DNA of 47,129 nt. It comes from a virus. Below, one piece after another: positions 2,163 through 40,183 of this stretch. The translations under genes and the position numbers were made by a program. The notes beneath the pieces are model-generated. The model worked only from the letters and a program-made list of their open reading frames with translations, was not told the origin of the DNA and made no database searches. Position 1 is the stretch's first letter, and the number at the start of each line of letters is the position of its first letter. The DNA lies in the IMG/VR virus record IMGVR_UViG_3300045303_000120, positions 1-47,129 of that record; one strand, 5' to 3'.

Positions 2163-3536
2163 TTACTGTGCCGCTGATTCTTCAATGCGGCGGCGCAACT
2201 CAGCGTCAATGCCTTTCCAGATTAAGCATTCTTCAATCGTCTCTTGCGCCATGCCAGCAGCAATCAACTTGACGCCATAGATGGAAGCACGGGGCGAGAT
2301 AACGACTCGCGCGCCTTTCATCTTGGCGACGCCAGCGCGCAACGCTTGCACCCTGTCGCACCAATCGGTTGCGGTCATAGTCGAGGGCGGTGGAGTCCTA
2401 TGCGGCGCGCCGCGCCCCTGGTCCGCGCCTACGATGGCGCGTTCGAGTCTCTCGTCATATCCCCATGCCAGGAACGCGAAACGATCCAGCGTGGCCGCGT
2501 CTAGCTGCTGGCGTCCCACATAGACTCTGTCTGCGCCTGTGCCGAAAGTATTGAGACAAGCGATTACGATGAAATCAGCGTGGCGTTGAACGGGAGTCGT
2601 ACCGTCTGGAAACGCCATGCAACCATTCGCCAGGGCTGAATTGACAACTAAGATTCCGGCCGCGTCGCCGGCGTCTAATTCGTCTAAACAGATTATTCCG
2701 CCGCACTCGAACGCTTGGCGGAAAGGAGTCGATTGATACTTTCCATGTGCATCGACAAAGCCCAGCAACTCATGTGCGCCCTGTACTGCGCCCTGGATGT
2801 AGTACGCAATGCCAAGCGCGCGCGCGGCTTGCTCTGTCGCTGTTGTCTTTCCGCTCCCTGCTGGTCCCACCAGGGCGGCAGGAATCTTTTGGCTCATAAT
2901 CTGGATGAGAGTCGGCACCAGACGATGGCGCGGCTCTGTGCCGCAATCCTTTGTCCCGTCTGCTGTTACAATTTCGAGTCGCGTTGTCGGAATCAGATTC
3001 GGCAATTCTTCTCGAACGATTATGCGAACAGCATCAGCATCGATTCCCTTGTTCGCTTTGTTACCTAACAGAGTTAGCAGTGTTTGAAGCGCTTGTGCGG
3101 TAGCATCGTCTGTGACGGGAGCGGGAGTCACGATTGCACCAGGAGTCGTCTGTGCTGGTGCTGGTGCGGGAGCGGGAGCGGGAGCGGGAGCGGGAGCGGG
3201 AGCGGGAGCGGGAGCGGGAGCGGGAGCGGGAGTCGCTGGCGACTCGTCGCGCGCTTGCGGACCAGCACCGTCTGGTGAACGCGAGTCGGTAGGAAGCGAT
3301 GGTGCGACGCCAGCAATCGCTTGTCGGCGGAAATGGTCTAGCGAGGAGTCGGCAGAGTCGTTGTATGCCGCCGCAAGGTGATGGTGCCGCATTTTGCAAG
3401 CGAACAGCGATGGTATGCCGTTGGCGACCAGCCATTTCCGGATAGTGGGACGGTTGGAGTCGGTGATGGCAAGGGAGCCGCGCGGTCCCAAAAGAGACTC
3501 TAATTCGGCGGCAGAGTTGCTTGGCGTTCGAGACAT
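2163..3536 (-). CDS. MoxR/CbbQ-type AAA+ ATPase with Pro-Ala linker
   Basis: A 457-residue ATPase. Residues 1-95 form a small N-terminal region that looks helical and DNA-binding-like (TIRKWLVANG). Residues 101-128 are a pure Ala-Pro linker. The AAA+ core follows: Walker A GPAGSGKT at 224-231, Walker B IICLDELD at 281-288, sensor 1 ACLNTFG near 327-332, and an arginine-finger motif LDAATLDRF at 345-353. The core resembles the MoxR/CbbQ/GvpN clade, which works as hexamers with VWA-domain partners; the next gene is such a partner. The start has AGGAAAG about 9 nt upstream. It is the first gene of the leftward operon. An N-terminal domain tethered by a repeat-encoded flexible linker is unusual for this clade. 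Confidence 0.85.
   Translation of the reverse strand: MSRTPSNSAAELESLLGPRGSLAITDSNRPTIRKWLVANGIPSLFACKMRHHHLAAAYNDSADSSLDHFRRQAIAGVAPSLPTDSRSPDGAGPQARDESPATPAPAPAPAPAPAPAPAPAPAPAPAPAQTTPGAIVTPAPVTDDATAQALQTLLTLLGNKANKGIDADAVRIIVREELPNLIPTTRLEIVTADGTKDCGTEPRHRLVPTLIQIMSQKIPAALVGPAGSGKTTATEQAARALGIAYYIQGAVQGAHELLGFVDAHGKYQSTPFRQAFECGGIICLDELDAGDAAGILVVNSALANGCMAFPDGTTPVQRHADFIVIACLNTFGTGADRVYVGRQQLDAATLDRFAFLAWGYDERLERAIVGADQGRGAPHRTPPPSTMTATDWCDRVQALRAGVAKMKGARVVISPRASIYGVKLIAAGMAQETIEECLIWKGIDAELRRRIEESAAQ
3166..3231 (-). repeat. Hexanucleotide repeat GCGGGA x11 (codes Ala-Pro linker)
   Basis: Eleven perfect copies of GCGGGA on the plus strand lie inside the AAA+ gene. On the coding strand this is TCCCGC, read as alternating Ala and Pro codons. 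Because the unit is 6 bp, slippage would lengthen or shorten the linker two residues at a time without breaking the frame. Perfect identity at the DNA level suggests recent or ongoing expansion. Confidence 0.9.
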
Positions 3537-12266: not shown

Positions 12267-12509
12267 ATGACCGATTACGTCGCCGACATTCAGCTTAAAA
12301 GACCGTTCATCCTGGCGGATCGCACCGTGAGCGCGATCCAGCTCCAGGTGCTCGGGAACATAAAAGACCACATCAAAATCGGCGTGGTCGGCGCAGACGT
12401 GCGAAGCGACGGCTCGGTGGTGATAAACCTGGAGCCGGGTCAAGCGCAGGCACTGGCAAGAGAACTGATGAACTTGGCTCGGAAAGGCCGGTTCAATGGC
12501 CCAGACTGA
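12267..12509 (+). CDS. Hypothetical protein, 80 aa
   Basis: Small alpha/beta protein following the previous gene by 6 nt and overlapping the start of the large terminase by 14 nt, so translation of the two is probably coupled. The C-terminal half (LEPGQAQALARELMNLARKG) is helical. No family recognised. It holds two of the TAAAAGAC octamers (12296 and 12361), one using an AGA arginine codon and the other an ATA isoleucine codon, both otherwise uncommon here. Confidence 0.65.
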   Translation: MTDYVADIQLKRPFILADRTVSAIQLQVLGNIKDHIKIGVVGADVRSDGSVVINLEPGQAQALARELMNLARKGRFNGPD

Positions 12510-14142
12510 TGCCGGTAAACGTGAGTTGCTCTCGGCAGCGCGTCGGCTTCTGGCGATAAAAGAGTCGCACGATCATTTGCTGCCGTTCATGCGCCTGACG
12601 ATGCCCAACCCCAACGCGATGGACGACGTCACCGAGTCGCTCTATGTGACCACGCCACAGGCGAGGTTGCTCTGTGAGATTATCGAGAAGGTCGAGAAGG
12701 GCGAATTAAAGCGCGTCGCGGTTTCGATCTCGCCCCAAACAGGAAAGAGCCAAGTGTTAACTCGCGGCGGCCCTGCCTGGATCTCGGGCCGCGATCCGCG
12801 CCGTCATGTGATGGTGGGAGCCTATAACCAGGACTTTGCCAACGAGTTTGGCGACGATGTCAGACAGCTCATCAACTCATCAGGCTACAAACAAGTCTTT
12901 CCAAGCTACAAGCTCGATAAAGGTGGCGCGGCCAAGGATCTACTTATCACACAGCAACGCGGCAAGCTGGCTTTCGTCGGCGTTGGCGGGTCAGGCACGG
13001 GTAAACCAGCCGACTTCTTCTTTGTTGACGATCCCATGCGTAACGACGAAGACGCCAACAGTCCTGCTTATCGAGACAAGATCTGGAAGTGGTTCAATCG
13101 TGTTGTGTTCACCCGTTGTCATGGGAAAACGCCCATAGTCGTGGTGCATACCCGTTGGCACGAAGATGACTTGATAGGAAGGCTCTGCGATCCCGATCAC
13201 CCTGGCCGAAAAAGACCGGTGGGAGACGGCGGCTATGCAGGCATCGAAGCAAACTGGCAGTATTTCAACATCCCGGCTGTGGTTACCGAACCGAAGCTGG
13301 CGGAGGCGCTCAAGCTGGAGCTGCACGTCCCCACCGACCCGATTGTTATTCGCGAGTTTGGTAACAAGCCAATGGCGTCGTTGTGGGAGGACAAATTCCC
13401 GCTGACGTTCCTGGCGGAAGCCAAACACAACGATCCGGTTGGTTTTTCAGCCCTGAGAATGGGCAAGCCGTCGCCAGACGACGGCTCTTATTTCAGGTCC
13501 GAAGACATCGTGGAATACGACCCTGGCGATCTGCCGGAAATGCTCCGGAAATATGGTGCGTCCGATCACGCCGTCTCCAGGGCACAGGGCCGCGATTACA
13601 CTGTCTTGGGATGCGTTGGCGTGGACGAGAAAGACGACATCTGGATCTTGCCGGATCTGGTCTGGGACCGCATGGAGACCGACAAGACGGTCGAGGAAAT
13701 GCTGGTGCAGTTCCAGACGCATAAACCTTTGTTCTGGTGGATGGAAAGCGAGTTGATTTCCAAGTCGTTTGGGCCGTTCCTCTACAAGCGCATGGAGGAG
13801 GAGAAGATCTACACGTCAATCGACGCGGTGACGCCGTCCAAAGACAAATCCCTTCGCGCCAGGGCGATCCAGGGTCGTATGCGTATGCGAAAAGTAAAGT
13901 TTCCCCGTCGTGCGCCGTGGTGGCCAACGGCGCGGGCGCAGTTGTTACGCTTCCCGGCTGGCGCAAACGACGACTTCGTAGACTGGCTGGCGCACATCGG
14001 CATGGGTCTCAACAAAGAGACCAAGCCGACTGTGCGGTCTGTGGTAGTGGACAAATACCCCAGCGGGTCTATCCATTGGATACTAGAGAACGCCCAAGCT
14101 CGCGCCCGTAAAGGCGACAAGCTCAAAGCGCGGGGATGGTGA
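12496..14142 (+). CDS. terL: Terminase large subunit
   Basis: A 548-residue packaging motor. The ATPase half has a deviant Walker A, SPQTGKSQ at 79-86, a typical large-terminase form, and Walker B FFFVDDP at 174-180. HTRWHEDDLIGRL (about 215-227) matches the conserved coupling segment. The nuclease half shows GASDHAVSRAQGRDYTVLGCVGVD with acidic positions expected of the RNase-H-like headful nuclease, WWMESE, and a late GANDDFVDWLAHIG. It translocates DNA into the procapsid through the portal encoded next and cuts the concatemer. Its ATG lies inside the preceding gene and its stop overlaps the portal start. Confidence 0.93.
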   Translation: MAQTDAGKRELLSAARRLLAIKESHDHLLPFMRLTMPNPNAMDDVTESLYVTTPQARLLCEIIEKVEKGELKRVAVSISPQTGKSQVLTRGGPAWISGRDPRRHVMVGAYNQDFANEFGDDVRQLINSSGYKQVFPSYKLDKGGAAKDLLITQQRGKLAFVGVGGSGTGKPADFFFVDDPMRNDEDANSPAYRDKIWKWFNRVVFTRCHGKTPIVVVHTRWHEDDLIGRLCDPDHPGRKRPVGDGGYAGIEANWQYFNIPAVVTEPKLAEALKLELHVPTDPIVIREFGNKPMASLWEDKFPLTFLAEAKHNDPVGFSALRMGKPSPDDGSYFRSEDIVEYDPGDLPEMLRKYGASDHAVSRAQGRDYTVLGCVGVDEKDDIWILPDLVWDRMETDKTVEEMLVQFQTHKPLFWWMESELISKSFGPFLYKRMEEEKIYTSIDAVTPSKDKSLRARAIQGRMRMRKVKFPRRAPWWPTARAQLLRFPAGANDDFVDWLAHIGMGLNKETKPTVRSVVVDKYPSGSIHWILENAQARARKGDKLKARGW

Positions 14143-34592: not shown

Positions 34593-36587
34593 TCAGTCCT
34601 TTCGGTATCTGGCTCCGGTCCACGCCTTCGCGGTTATCGGAAAACCCCCTGCCCAGATCGGGCCTTGCTCGATCAAGGACTTGAACTCTTTCACGCTGCG
34701 GTCTGCGGCTTCGCTGACGATCTCGTCGTGTACGGTCAGCACCACCGGGTAGCCAGCGGCTTCGACGCGCAACATGGCTTCGGCCATGACGTCCCGCGCA
34801 ATGGCCTGGACCGCATTCTCGACCAGCGATCCCCCATAGGTGCTGATCCTTGCCCAGTTAGACGAGTTTCCTGGGTCTTTTATGACCCGCCGATTGTTGG
34901 CGGAATTGACGACTGTTTTATAAGTCAGGGACATCTTTTTGCTGCCCCAGGGTGTCATGACCTCGCGCAGCTTCGGATAGGGATAAGTCAGCATTCTTCC
35001 AGACGGCAGCCGCATAAACAGAAAAGAGCCAGCCGCCTTGAATGAGAGTCTACCGTTGTTGGTGGCCCGCCCTGGCTGACGCACCGCACCGACAGCGGCA
35101 TCTTCGGTGTCGTACCAGAACTGTTTCACGCTGGGGTGCGCTTCGCGCCAAGCGAGCTTGAGATCGTTGGCGCGTTCGTCGGGAACGTCCACGCCGTAGC
35201 CCCTGGCCATCGTCTGGAATGCGCCGACGCCGCCGCCGAACCCCAGCGCCAATTCCATCACCTTGCCGATTTGGCGTTGCTGATCGGTGACGTTGTCCGG
35301 GTGAATGCCGAAAGCCCGCGCATAGGCGAGCACATAGAGATCGTAGCCTTTGCCTTTATCGAAAGAGTGAAACGCGTTGATCTTCCACTTTTCGTTGGCC
35401 AGCCACGCCAGGGCGCGACCTTCGATGTTGGAGAAATCCGCCGCGTATAAAGACGAACCTGGAGCCGCGATGATGAGGCCCCTAAGAATGTCGCCGACCA
35501 CTTCGAGGGGCGGTCCCGCGATCATTTCCACGACGCGCGCCGACCCGGTCATAACAAGAGGGATCAACTCGTCTTGGGCTTTGTCCTTCGGTCTTTTAAT
35601 GTTTTGAGGTTGGAACCGTCGCGCGGCCCATCGCCCGGTAGATGCCCCGTGATACGCCAAAAGACCACGCGCCCTCCCATCTTCAGAGCATCCCATAACA
35701 AGGGCATCGATCTTCTTAACGGCTGCCTTTCCGGCTTCGGCTCTGAGGGTAAGGACATGACGAACATCCTCCGGTAGGTCTTTGCGGGATAGCAAATCTA
35801 TGACGTCGTCTCTGGCGATGGACTCGGTGTCCACGCCGCGCATCCGGCAAAATTCCACAATCTTGGCGACCGCTTCGCAGCTCGGCACTAGTCCTTTAGA
35901 GACGGTGCGGATCTCATGATTTAATTTAGTTAGTGTTACTTCGATGATCGGTCGTGCCGCCGCGCACAATGCTTTATCAACGTAGATGCCCCTGTCGTTT
36001 ATACGTTGGTCTAGTATCCAGACGTCACGCTCGATGGGGCGCAATTCCATGAGTCGGGCGTGTAGCTCCCGCTCGACCACCACGTCTTGCACACAGTATG
36101 CGATCAATTCCTTAATCCTGACGGGGTCATCCCACCAGACGGCTTCGTTGTTTTCGTCCCAGCGGCGCGGCCTGGACATACGGAGCATGGTCCGGTAGCC
36201 GACCGGGTCTTTGGCTTCTGAGATACCCAGCGCCGCAGCGGCACTGTCCAAGGCTCCAGGCAGGGCCATCGCATAGGCCCGCGCCATCGTGCAATTCCAT
36301 TGCTCGATCTTCGGCAGCGGCCATTTGTAGCGAGCCGCAAGAACGTGCTGCCAGATGGTTCTTTCAAAGGCGGCGTTGTGCGCCCACATCGCGCCACCAG
36401 CGGCAATGTGCGCGACGATCTCAGGGGGACACGGCTGGCCTGGAACCCAGGTCTTGACCTCGCCATTGTCGATGGCATAGGCCGCGCACCACACGTCTGT
36501 GCTCCGGTGCTCCGCGTAGACGTAAACGCCCGTCTTGCGGAGATCCACTTCGCTGCGCGTCTCGAAGTCGATGTGACAGTCTTTCAT
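34593..36587 (-). CDS. Family A DNA polymerase with 3'-5' exonuclease
   Basis: A 664-residue replicative polymerase. The N-terminal DnaQ-like exonuclease starts at once with HIDFETRS (D7, E9). The polymerase part shows motif A SLYAADFSNIEGR near residue 381, motif B-like KVMELALGFGGGVGAFQTMA near 440, and motif C VLTVHDEIVSEA near 617. It is the short phage form, close to T7-like and other phage Pol I enzymes, without a 5'-3' nuclease domain. The start overlaps the upstream stop (ATGA). Together with the prim-pol/helicase, SSB and nuclease genes it makes a self-contained replisome. ATA-AAA-GAC at 34875 is one of the genome's octamers. Confidence 0.93.
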   Translation of the reverse strand: MKDCHIDFETRSEVDLRKTGVYVYAEHRSTDVWCAAYAIDNGEVKTWVPGQPCPPEIVAHIAAGGAMWAHNAAFERTIWQHVLAARYKWPLPKIEQWNCTMARAYAMALPGALDSAAAALGISEAKDPVGYRTMLRMSRPRRWDENNEAVWWDDPVRIKELIAYCVQDVVVERELHARLMELRPIERDVWILDQRINDRGIYVDKALCAAARPIIEVTLTKLNHEIRTVSKGLVPSCEAVAKIVEFCRMRGVDTESIARDDVIDLLSRKDLPEDVRHVLTLRAEAGKAAVKKIDALVMGCSEDGRARGLLAYHGASTGRWAARRFQPQNIKRPKDKAQDELIPLVMTGSARVVEMIAGPPLEVVGDILRGLIIAAPGSSLYAADFSNIEGRALAWLANEKWKINAFHSFDKGKGYDLYVLAYARAFGIHPDNVTDQQRQIGKVMELALGFGGGVGAFQTMARGYGVDVPDERANDLKLAWREAHPSVKQFWYDTEDAAVGAVRQPGRATNNGRLSFKAAGSFLFMRLPSGRMLTYPYPKLREVMTPWGSKKMSLTYKTVVNSANNRRVIKDPGNSSNWARISTYGGSLVENAVQAIARDVMAEAMLRVEAAGYPVVLTVHDEIVSEAADRSVKEFKSLIEQGPIWAGGFPITAKAWTGARYRKD

Positions 36588-37742: not shown

Positions 37743-38053
37743 TGGAACATCCTCTTTTCGCGCAGCGTCGTCAGATGATACCGCCCGCCCCTTCCGCTTA
37801 TTTGGACGTCGCATGATTCCTCCAATCGTCTGTTAATTTGTGAGACCAGACCCCGGAGCGCGCTGCGCTTCGAGGGGCGATAAGCGTAGATCATTTCAAA
37901 GAGTTCGTTGTAGCCGATGCCTTCGTCGCCAGCGTGGCGCAGCGCATCGAGGACACGGACGGATTGTTCGCCAAACCGGATGCCGTGGCGTATCCCGCCC
38001 ATCGGTCTTTCACAGTGCGGACAGCGTGTCGTCAGGCGTTCACCCGGCAGCAT
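37739..38053 (-). CDS. Zn-finger/winged-helix regulator, 104 aa
   Basis: Near the N-terminus RCPHCERPMGGI has one CxxC. Residues 28-100 resemble the response-regulator C-terminal DNA-binding fold: VRVLDALRHAGDEGIGYNELFEMIY, the recognition helix SKRSALRGLVSQINRRL, and a wing with GRGGRYHL. There is no receiver domain, so it is a stand-alone DNA-binding protein. The ATG at 38053 lies in the last codons of the DUF7768 gene. The recognition helix region contains the octamer TAACAGAC with an AGA arginine codon. Confidence 0.72.
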   Translation of the reverse strand: MLPGERLTTRCPHCERPMGGIRHGIRFGEQSVRVLDALRHAGDEGIGYNELFEMIYAYRPSKRSALRGLVSQINRRLEESCDVQISGRGGRYHLTTLREKRMFQ

Positions 38054-38381
38054 TGGTCTTCTCCAGTTCGCGGTATTCCACCGGCATATTCGTCTTGCTG
38101 GCGTGTGCGACTGCCGCCGCCACGCCGCGCGATATGCCCCGGTCGGTGTAGACCACCATTGCGTCGGCTTTATCGATCCACGCCAGACCAGCCGCGATAC
38201 CAAGCTCGCGCTCTCTGGGGATCAGGTCGTTCAGAATCTGGGTATAGAGAAGGTGCGACGCAATCGGGGCTTCGCCGCGCAGAACGGAGTCTCGCAGACA
38301 GCGTTGCGCGTACCGGACGTTCTCCCGAACCCCTTCGTCGGTCTCAGCCGCGTAGGGGGACTCTAAGATCACTAACCGCAT
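38040..38381 (-). CDS. DUF7768-like nucleoside-2-deoxyribosyltransferase-type protein
   Basis: A 113-residue protein. MRLVILESPYA with GVRENVRYAQRCLRDSVLRGEAPIASHLLYTQILND and ADAMVVYTDRGISRGVAAAVAHA matches a phage family I recall as DUF7768. Its layout (ESPY strand, R-x-x-x-x-Y-A-x-x-x-x-x-D helix, G-E-A-P-x-x-S-H, D-x-G-x-S-x-G) resembles nucleoside 2-deoxyribosyltransferases and other nucleotide-binding Rossmann-like proteins. It is a likely nucleotide-metabolism or modification enzyme; substrate unknown. It starts a leftward group with the MazZ-like gene. Confidence 0.75.
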   Translation of the reverse strand: MRLVILESPYAAETDEGVRENVRYAQRCLRDSVLRGEAPIASHLLYTQILNDLIPRERELGIAAGLAWIDKADAMVVYTDRGISRGVAAAVAHASKTNMPVEYRELEKTNAAG

Positions 38382-38476: not shown

Positions 38477-39205
38477 CTACCCGTGTGCTACTTGGGCGGT
38501 CTGTTTACGACGGCGCAGCTTGAGCGCGCCCAGACCCATGATAGCAGAACCGAACAACCAGACAGCACCGGGAACCGGAACGGCGCTGATACCGGCTGGG
38601 ACAATGTAGAAAGACTCGGCACCGTCTGAGGCTCCGGTCCAAGAGGCACGGAAGATCAGGTTGTCGCCGGGTAGAACACCAGCCGCGAGCAAGTTAAAGC
38701 CGGTGATGAGATAGTCCCCCTTACCATTTCCGTTGTTAATGTCTGGCAGAGCCAGGGGGCCGGTGAAGTCGTAGATGATTCTTGAACCGGCGGGCTTCGA
38801 CAGATCGATCAACTGGAAAGACTGTAGAGTCTCGCCGCCGCTGGCGGTATTGACGTCGATGGCAACGCCGAAGGTGGTGTTGACGTTAAGGAGCGTCTCC
38901 AACAGTGCGCCGGAGTAGGGCAAAGCGTTAGCTTGAAGGTCGCCGACGAGGACTCCACCCCCCAGGATGTTGGTCGAAAAGGTGTTGAAAGAGGTATCGT
39001 TGCCGTGATTGGAGAAATTGTTGTAGCCAAAGGTTCCCGGCTGGTGCGCGGCTTGCGTCCCGCAGATTATACAGGGGTTCGATTGGCTCTGCGGAACGAT
39101 GTTTCCCGCAGGCAACGCGATGATAGAGAGGTTATTGATCGCATCCGCCTTGGCTGGAAGTGCCAAGGCGGCTAACACAGTCGTAGCGAATAAAAGACGG
39201 CGCAT
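38477..39205 (-). CDS. Exported protein with PEP/VPLPA-CTERM sorting tail
   Basis: A 242-residue protein with all parts of a PEP-CTERM substrate. Signal peptide: MRRLLFATTVLAALALPAKA. Middle: Asn/Thr/Ser/Gly-rich beta-type region with a CIIC cysteine pair. C-terminus: VPVPGA (209-214), a hydrophobic helix (WLFGSAIMGLGALKL) and RRRK. In bacteria such proteins are exported, then recognised by an exosortase and placed at the cell surface, usually alongside exopolysaccharide genes. No exosortase is encoded here, so host machinery would be needed. It lies in the replication-side operon, 44 nt after the SSB gene. The TAAAAGAC octamer at 39191 inside its signal peptide suggests long residence in this genome. 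Confidence 0.82.
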   Translation of the reverse strand: MRRLLFATTVLAALALPAKADAINNLSIIALPAGNIVPQSQSNPCIICGTQAAHQPGTFGYNNFSNHGNDTSFNTFSTNILGGGVLVGDLQANALPYSGALLETLLNVNTTFGVAIDVNTASGGETLQSFQLIDLSKPAGSRIIYDFTGPLALPDINNGNGKGDYLITGFNLLAAGVLPGDNLIFRASWTGASDGAESFYIVPAGISAVPVPGAVWLFGSAIMGLGALKLRRRKQTAQVAHG

Positions 39206-39249
39206 TTTAGTGAACTCCGCTGAAGGTTGTTGTTGGGAACGCGTTACGG

Positions 39250-39849
39250 TTAGTTGAACAGCGAGTCGGGGTTCTTAGCCGCAGACGCAAGCGCGTCGTC
39301 GTTGATGAACTCGAACTCGTCTTCGACTTTAGCACGACCACCGCCAATCCGGTCGTCGTGATCCAAGAGCATCACGTTACCAAGCCCAAAAGACGCGCCG
39401 CGCCCATTGGCCTTGTGCTCCCAGCAGTAAACACGCACTGAGACCCTGGCCCAGCGGCCAGGATAGACCTCGTCTGGAATAGAACACGCTTCGCCGTTGC
39501 CAAAGATAACATTGGGCTTGGACGAAGAAGACATGCGGACCAGGAACGGGAATTTCTCAGCCAGTTCCTTGTCTTCGGTCTTTTCCGCGTGTTTGAGGAA
39601 AGGCTTCTTCACCTTGCCGATGTTGGTGCCCCACCGCTCGGTCGCGGCCTTCTCCACCCACTTGACGGCGATGGAGAGATCCACGTCGGGCGGCATGATT
39701 AAAGACGTGGAGAACTTGGCTTTGTCCTCCGGCTCGCCTTCCATCGCGCGGGCCTTAAACAGGTTTGGGTAGCTCAACCGTCCCGCTGGCAGGAGTAGCG
39801 TCCCCGCCTTCGTCTCGGTGCAGACCTTGAACTTGGGATTGGTAGTCAT
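39250..39849 (-). CDS. DUF2815 single-stranded DNA-binding protein
   Basis: A 199-residue protein matching the DUF2815 family, which includes the characterised SSB of phage Enc34. The OB-type core is visible as LSYPNLFKA near the N-terminus, KFSTSLIMPP, a VNGSxxx-like segment around IFGNGEACSIPDEVYPGRWARVSVRVYCWEHKANGRGASFGLGNVMLL, and an acidic C-terminus (VEDEFEFINDDAL...DSLFN) ending in Phe, as in SSB tails that recruit partners. The start at 39849 has AAGGAG at long spacing. It protects single strands during replication and pairs with the DUF2800 nuclease upstream. The 5' end overlaps the upstream gene by 95 bp. Confidence 0.85.
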   Translation of the reverse strand: MTTNPKFKVCTETKAGTLLLPAGRLSYPNLFKARAMEGEPEDKAKFSTSLIMPPDVDLSIAVKWVEKAATERWGTNIGKVKKPFLKHAEKTEDKELAEKFPFLVRMSSSSKPNVIFGNGEACSIPDEVYPGRWARVSVRVYCWEHKANGRGASFGLGNVMLLDHDDRIGGGRAKVEDEFEFINDDALASAAKNPDSLFN

Positions 39850-40183
39850 GTGCTGCTTTTTCTCCTTGTGCTTGGGCTTCAATGACCGTCTTTCCGATCT
39901 GTCCATCATCCGGCACCGTCGATGCCGGTGTTGCCGTAGCGTTGTCTGTAATCGCGAGAATGGACTCGTAGCCAATCGCGAGAGGCGTCGGCTTCTTGGT
40001 GAGGTGCGCCAGGGCGACACGCTCGACCTCCAGCCGCAGGAGCTTGGCGTTAGCGTCCAGAACTCCCATGCCGGTGAACACTTGACCGTTGGTTAATATG
40101 ACACTGACCTTGCGCGTCGGCGGGAGAGCGGCGCGGGTTTCCCTGGGCGGATTGAAAACAATGTCGAGTTGCTCTGGCGTCAT
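39755..40183 (-). CDS. Hypothetical protein, 142 aa, overlapping the SSB gene
   Basis: Residues 20-75 (TRKVSVILTNGQVFTGMGVLDANAKLLRLEV...PLAIGYESILAITD) resemble a small beta-barrel of Sm or Tudor type. The C-terminal 60 residues are polar and Gly/Ala/Thr-rich. The start overlaps the preceding stop (TGATG). Its last 95 bp run through the first 32 codons of the SSB gene in another frame, an unusually long overlap for this genome. Either both frames are used or the tail is a passive extension. A role linked to the SSB or nuclease is possible. Confidence 0.6.
   Translation of the reverse strand: MTPEQLDIVFNPPRETRAALPPTRKVSVILTNGQVFTGMGVLDANAKLLRLEVERVALAHLTKKPTPLAIGYESILAITDNATATPASTVPDDGQIGKTVIEAQAQGEKAAHDYQSQVQGLHRDEGGDATPASGTVELPKPV

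Follow-up and report, generated by a model that had tools for sequence, protein, structure and literature searches.

Substrates of the PEP-CTERM/exosortase (EpsH) system have been described from Gram-negative bacteria (TIGR02595, PF07589; PMC1569441), where they combine a signal-like start with a C-terminal motif, a hydrophobic helix and a basic cluster, and carry no known domain between the two ends. For these tails it has been proposed that the protein is exported by Sec, anchored by the tail, cleaved by the exosortase and released to the surface or the exopolysaccharide (EPS; Haft et al. 2006, PMC1569441). What exosortases are for remains little understood, and in the literature found their substrates appear as proteins of bacterial EPS or biofilms. 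Among them, the flocculation-associated PepA (NF033554; PMC9850573) resembles the protein described here as an exported PEP-CTERM protein with a possible role in EPS. On the viral side, the superinfection-exclusion lipoprotein Ltp of Streptococcus phage TP-J34 is a phage moron product displayed outside the cytoplasmic membrane via host anchoring (PMC3952083); it uses a lipid anchor in place of a sorting tail and may be likened to our protein in its presumed mode of display. Exosortase-type tails on viral proteins have been reported from Yellowstone viral genomes, where 13 members of the TIGR03118 family, with a putative exosortase interaction domain, were listed as host-derived or horizontally transferred (PMC11003980); these form another family, and our protein has given no NCBIfam match to TIGR03118. 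Apart from this passing mention of viral exosortase interaction domains, the literature searched has yielded no paper on phage-encoded PEP-CTERM proteins.

The window, i.e., the whole stretch of 47,129 bases analysed here, has the same extent as the virus record, which its terminase large subunit (Table 1) identifies as a tailed-phage genome; genes for a major head protein, tail fibre, endolysin, DNA polymerase, ssDNA-binding protein, exonuclease and primase-helicase are also present. One further gene encodes a protein that shares the architecture of PEP-CTERM substrates and scores above their curated cut-off, and that differs from them in being encoded by a phage without an exosortase, in its virus-only core and in the exchange of its tail class. 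We regard it as probable that this gene is a moron for a secreted, virus-specific beta-sandwich protein, which the host exosortase would sort to the surface or the EPS and which would there favour the resident phage.

Relationships of the window phage to isolates are distant: tblastn of its TerL and PolA against isolate phages has returned only matches below 60% identity, e.g., to Rhizobium phage RHph_N65 and a Microcystis phage. Of the large proteins of four other carriers, those of L034, L035 and L001 have given no match, and the one of L045 matches phages of mixed hosts only in part. Elsewhere in the window, a CobS-like ATPase whose N-terminal half contains a proline-alanine repeat is encoded at 2163-3536 on the minus strand (phrog_249, E = 2e-46), followed by a further gene of the same strand at 1227-2150.

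The window gene and its predicted product

The coordinates given by the first-pass annotation, which had called a phage-encoded PEP-CTERM surface protein at this locus, have proved correct, the strand being minus (Table 1). Translation of the open reading frame from 39205 down to 38477 yields 242 aa, MRRLLFATTVLAALALPAKA...AVPVPGAVWLFGSAIMGLGALKLRRRKQTAQVAHG. A promoter and terminator scan around the gene has found nothing above chance.

Table 1. Positions of the gene, its predicted protein parts and related features in the window
Feature	Position	Strand	Basis
Phage PEP-CTERM-type protein gene (242 aa, ATG start, stop included)	38477..39205	-	Translation
Signal-peptide-like N-terminus, residues 1-21 (MRRLLFATTVLAALALPAKA, followed by D)	39143..39205	-	Sequence pattern
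Mature core (predicted), residues 22-208	38582..39142	-	Alignments A1 and A3; AlphaFold2
Sorting tail (predicted), residues 209-242: VPVPGA motif, hydrophobic helix, LRRRK	38480..38581	-	TIGR02595
Probable ribosome-binding site AGCGGAG	39215..39221	-	Sequence; 9 nt before ATG
Stretch absent from L177	38382..39251		blastn to L177 and L174; gene order
Upstream neighbour, ssDNA-binding protein (ORF as listed; real start possibly further in)	39250..40020	-	PF10991 E = 2e-21; phrog_112 E = 1e-28
Downstream neighbour, DUF7768 / nucleoside deoxyribosyltransferase-like protein	38040..38381	-	PF24963 E = 1e-30; phrog_355
Phage DNA polymerase A, same replication block	34593..36587	-	PF00476, phrog_17
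Terminase large subunit	12496..14142	+	phrog_38 E = 5e-85

The N-terminus shows an Arg-rich start, a hydrophobic stretch and A-x-A, and an equivalent start is found in intact relatives; the signal peptide claimed in the first-pass annotation is thus present as a signal-like start, called from the sequence pattern only. The core bears a CxxC (C45, C48) together with the motifs FGVAIDVN, GNGxGDY and DGxESFY, and AlphaFold2 has predicted a beta-sandwich for it with moderate confidence (pLDDT 75, pTM 0.79). Fold searches with this model against PDB and BFVD have returned no significant match, a sequence search of PDB no relative of the core, and comparison of the window protein with Pfam and PHROGs no family.

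The C-terminus reads VPVPGAVWLFGSAIMGLGALKLRRRKQTAQVAHG. Residues 209-235 match TIGR02595 (PEP_CTERM) at 17.9 bits (E = 0.004), the cut-off being 16; this modest score takes the VPVPGA-helix-RRRK tail, as originally annotated, past the curated cut-off in the profile test that had been set beforehand. The window protein stays below the threshold of Pfam PF07589 and does not match the VPLPA-CTERM profile (TIGR03370); among the 31 records with relatives, PF07589 has been reached in 10, with a best E of 2e-10. Among the 85 ORFs in the window that reach 100 aa, this gene alone combines a signal-like start with a tail; when the residues of its protein were shuffled 20,000 times, such a tail arose in 25 cases.

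A virus-only family at a variable insertion site

Scanning of 2.9 million viral contigs has revealed relatives at 77 viral loci on 76 contigs, with 44-85% identity. The motifs VPQSxSxPCxxC, FGVAIDVN, GNGxGDY and DGxESFY are invariant in alignments of the cores, and every member with intact ends has both the signal-like start and the motif-helix-Arg/Lys tail. A regular expression for the tail matches 74 of the 77 members (two misses stop at contig ends, and the third is taken to be L059 with a TEPG variant) versus 11 of 1,304 neighbouring called genes, nine of which are further PEP-CTERM-like proteins. Patterns built on the invariant core motifs have detected no relative among 84,980 prokaryote species genomes, none has been found in 50,697 phage records, and NCBIfam has given no meaningful match to the core alone for 10 members. 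In close pairs, dN/dS is ~0.02-0.1 for the cores and mostly 0.1-0.3 for the tails, so that purifying selection acts on both and the gene is in use. The window protein is a member of a conserved, virus-only family whose members with intact ends have all retained the tail.

L174 and L177, the phages nearest to the window phage (PolA identity 70 and 73%), lack the gene; in both, the gene for DUF7768 comes next after that for the ssDNA-binding protein. Homology to L177 stops at the stop codon of the former (39252) and restarts at the start of the latter (38381), with 107 bp between them in L177; as L174 has other sequence at this place, the spot between the two genes is variable. Across the family, the neighbours change with the phage and comprise an ssDNA-binding protein, an endolysin, a terminase or an integrase. 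Absence from close relatives and occurrence at varied places in unrelated phages are what characterizes a phage moron, and the gene is best read as such a horizontally mobile accessory gene. An integrase gene has been found near the PEP-CTERM gene in L039 (assigned) and in L035, L052 and L076; some carriers are therefore probably temperate, and the gene may act in lysogens too.

The earlier suggestion that the gene is a settled part of this genome does not hold, given that both relatives lack it and that homology breaks exactly at the ends of the neighbouring genes. The suggestion had drawn on a copy of TAAAAGAC in the signal peptide, and one copy does lie within the signal-peptide codons. Among the 8-mers of the window, TAAAAGAC exceeds expectation the most, with 20 copies on both strands versus about 0.5 expected; a single copy in the gene is outweighed by the empty site and does not show settledness. 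Sites of the word include 12296, 12361, 39191 and 45421, and words containing AAAAGAC are likewise among the commonest in L174 and L177.

Insertion relative to close kin would also be seen if an ordinary host PEP-CTERM gene without any phage role had recently been picked up. This explanation is largely refuted and highly improbable, since 77 viral loci stand against no cellular relative in the motif-based search of the 84,980 species genomes, and since selection on the gene is strongly purifying.

Exchange of cores and tails

Within the family, the tails fall into the classes PEP, VPxP, PEPxxW and an unmodelled GAG[LI]PG class; at E <= 0.1, NCBIfam has assigned VPLPA-CTERM (TIGR03370) to 16, PEP-CTERM to six and PEPxxWA to one of 30 members. 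On the core tree 13 changes of tail class are needed, where the minimum possible is 3 and the shuffled mean 23.9. Individual pairs show how such changes look. L029 and L026 have cores with 97% identity and different tail classes; within the 20.7 and 11.4 kb compared, shared DNA is confined to this gene, beginning 29 bp ahead of the ATG and extending as far as the VPIP motif. L022 and L027 have nothing but the core in common (87%), with GAG and PEP tails. In L002 and L005 the same core protein (100% identical, DNA 89%) is flanked by signal peptides and tails that differ. The reverse is seen in L001 and L039, where backbone, signal peptide and tail are shared and the cores are 50% identical. Strongly backbone-related pairs with diverged cores have kept the tail class in 21 of 21 cases, often with a tail similarity of 0.85-0.99, these pairs representing about three phage lineages and thus not 21 independent events. 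In partial Mantel tests, tail and flank are correlated given the core (r = 0.24, p = 0.001), and core and flank are hardly so given the tail (r = 0.06, p = 0.055). Because tail similarity tracks the backbone in this way whereas the core hardly does, we read the cores as moving between phages and the tails as staying fitted to what is presumably the host of each phage.

That the tail is the part in step with the backbone, and presumably with the host, would also suit a decoy, in which the host exosortase is swamped by large amounts of a phage substrate and the cell surface loses its host PEP-CTERM proteins, e.g., the receptor of a competitor; the lack of an exosortase in the phages fits as well. 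A decoy would not need a core, yet the core, with its invariant motifs and low dN/dS, is the most conserved part of the protein, which makes this explanation very unlikely.

The GAG class has the form [VP]xP-GAG[LI]PG-helix-RRR, to which no NCBIfam sorting model matches, and GAG[LI]PG-helix-RRR occurs in no fewer than three phage protein families that are unrelated to one another. Such tails have been recorded in L022, L029, L035-L037, L051, L052, L055, L056, L064, L067, L069, L076 and L077, in companion proteins (see below) and in L198-L206. A search for GAGLPG in 398 Pseudomonadota genomes has given two weak profile matches and one pattern match, all weak or chance-like; a second GAGLPG pattern has matched none of 397 Pseudomonadota genomes, and a search of plasmids for the tail has found no match. 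Short tail queries against phage records have likewise found none, the query length being too small to be informative. As no NCBIfam model covers the tail and it is hardly found in bacteria, exosortase processing is not established for these members, and GAG[LI]PG-helix-RRR is a possible undescribed sorting signal. Tails of this type presumably occur in Bradyrhizobium-like bacteria, which we take as a lead only.

A second, unrelated exported protein with a tail is encoded at most four genes away in eight phages, and its tail class is always that of the family member: both are PEP in L004, L027, L044, L045, L046 and L048, and both are GAG in L035 and L055 (L060 is a duplicate of L055). In several phages the companion gene overlaps the family gene by 4 bp, and PF07589 is above its cut-off in 4 of 4 PEP-tailed companions tested. 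About six of the eight cases are independent, and class permutation among these six gives 1/15, so that the match draws its strength from comparison with the family at large, in which most tails are VPxP. The companion in L048 has relatives at 11 viral loci and represents a further family of phage proteins with sorting tails; in one relative (L212:2938-3945) the tail has been lost, and the frame continues into another C-terminus. Two relatives of the window phage, L190 (16191-16850) and L194 (6978-7637), encode a GAG-tailed exported protein of 220 aa that differs from the window family and stands for a second such family, with relatives at nine viral loci (L198-L206).

These class matches bear on another explanation, namely that helix and Arg/Lys cluster serve as a plain inner-membrane anchor of a periplasmic domain, which would block DNA entry or aid lysis without exosortase. 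Helix plus Arg/Lys alone make a stop-transfer anchor, the gene adjoins an endolysin gene in several phages, and the outer side of the inner membrane houses many known superinfection exclusion proteins (PMC3952083). A plain anchor needs, however, neither switching of the motif between known sorting classes nor unrelated companions of matching class, and we consider it unlikely. In a broader reading, which we hold to be about evenly balanced, phages would generally hijack exosortases, with at least three unrelated secreted families whose cores have been recombined onto host-matched tails, the GAG[LI]PG-helix-RRR class included.

Probable host sorting and candidate roles

No exosortase has been found over the whole length of the window record or in 31 phage records with the gene. 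The first-pass annotation had noted none nearby, which extends to the entire record, and its proposal that the phage relies on the host for sorting is the natural reading of an export signal and an exosortase-type tail in phages without an exosortase. The tail motif AVPVPxAxW has been located in genomes of mainly Methylomonas, Methylobacter and other gammaproteobacteria, matches that describe a tail flavour and do not assign a host. As a proxy for the host of the phage, 12 bacterial genomes with this tail motif have been taken, and 11 of them carry an exosortase (PF09721/TIGR02602) above cut-off. The sequence features together suggest that the protein is very likely a substrate of a host exosortase.

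In the favoured reading as a host-sorted moron, the protein would be exported by Sec on account of its signal peptide and retained in the inner membrane by the helix and Arg/Lys cluster at its C-terminus, and the host exosortase would recognise the VPVP-type motif and cut off the tail. The protein would then be handed to the cell surface or the exopolysaccharide of the infected cell, where it most likely alters the presentation of the envelope to the benefit of the resident phage. That it acts at the surface or in the EPS during infection appears reasonably likely. Superinfection exclusion comes first in order of likelihood and a change of EPS or flocculation second. Superinfection exclusion specifically is a tentative guess by analogy, made because known surface-displayed phage morons such as Ltp act in this way (PMC3952083) and because, within one phage lineage, cores vary under a constant tail; the core has no fold or family match that points to a binding target or an activity.

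Its main rival is a PepA-like modification of EPS or flocculation, by which soluble EPS would be converted to bound polymer and infected cells would stay in or leave aggregates. Overexpressed PepA has lowered soluble and raised bound EPS in Aquincola (PMC9850573), and the full-length window protein shows a weak match to the floc_PepA equivalog (NF033554; 23.1 bits). This score is far under the cut-off of 80, and core-only segments have no PepA match, from which it follows that the weak match stems from the tail; homology of the family to PepA has been rejected on these grounds, and the role in EPS remains a rather doubtful one.

Regarding its wider meaning, the family points to surface-level conflict between phages or between phage and host in EPS-producing bacteria. 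Conserved virus-only cores with tails that follow the phage backbone would constitute an evolutionary readout of the tails that a host can process, and the family offers a compact test protein for work on exosortases.
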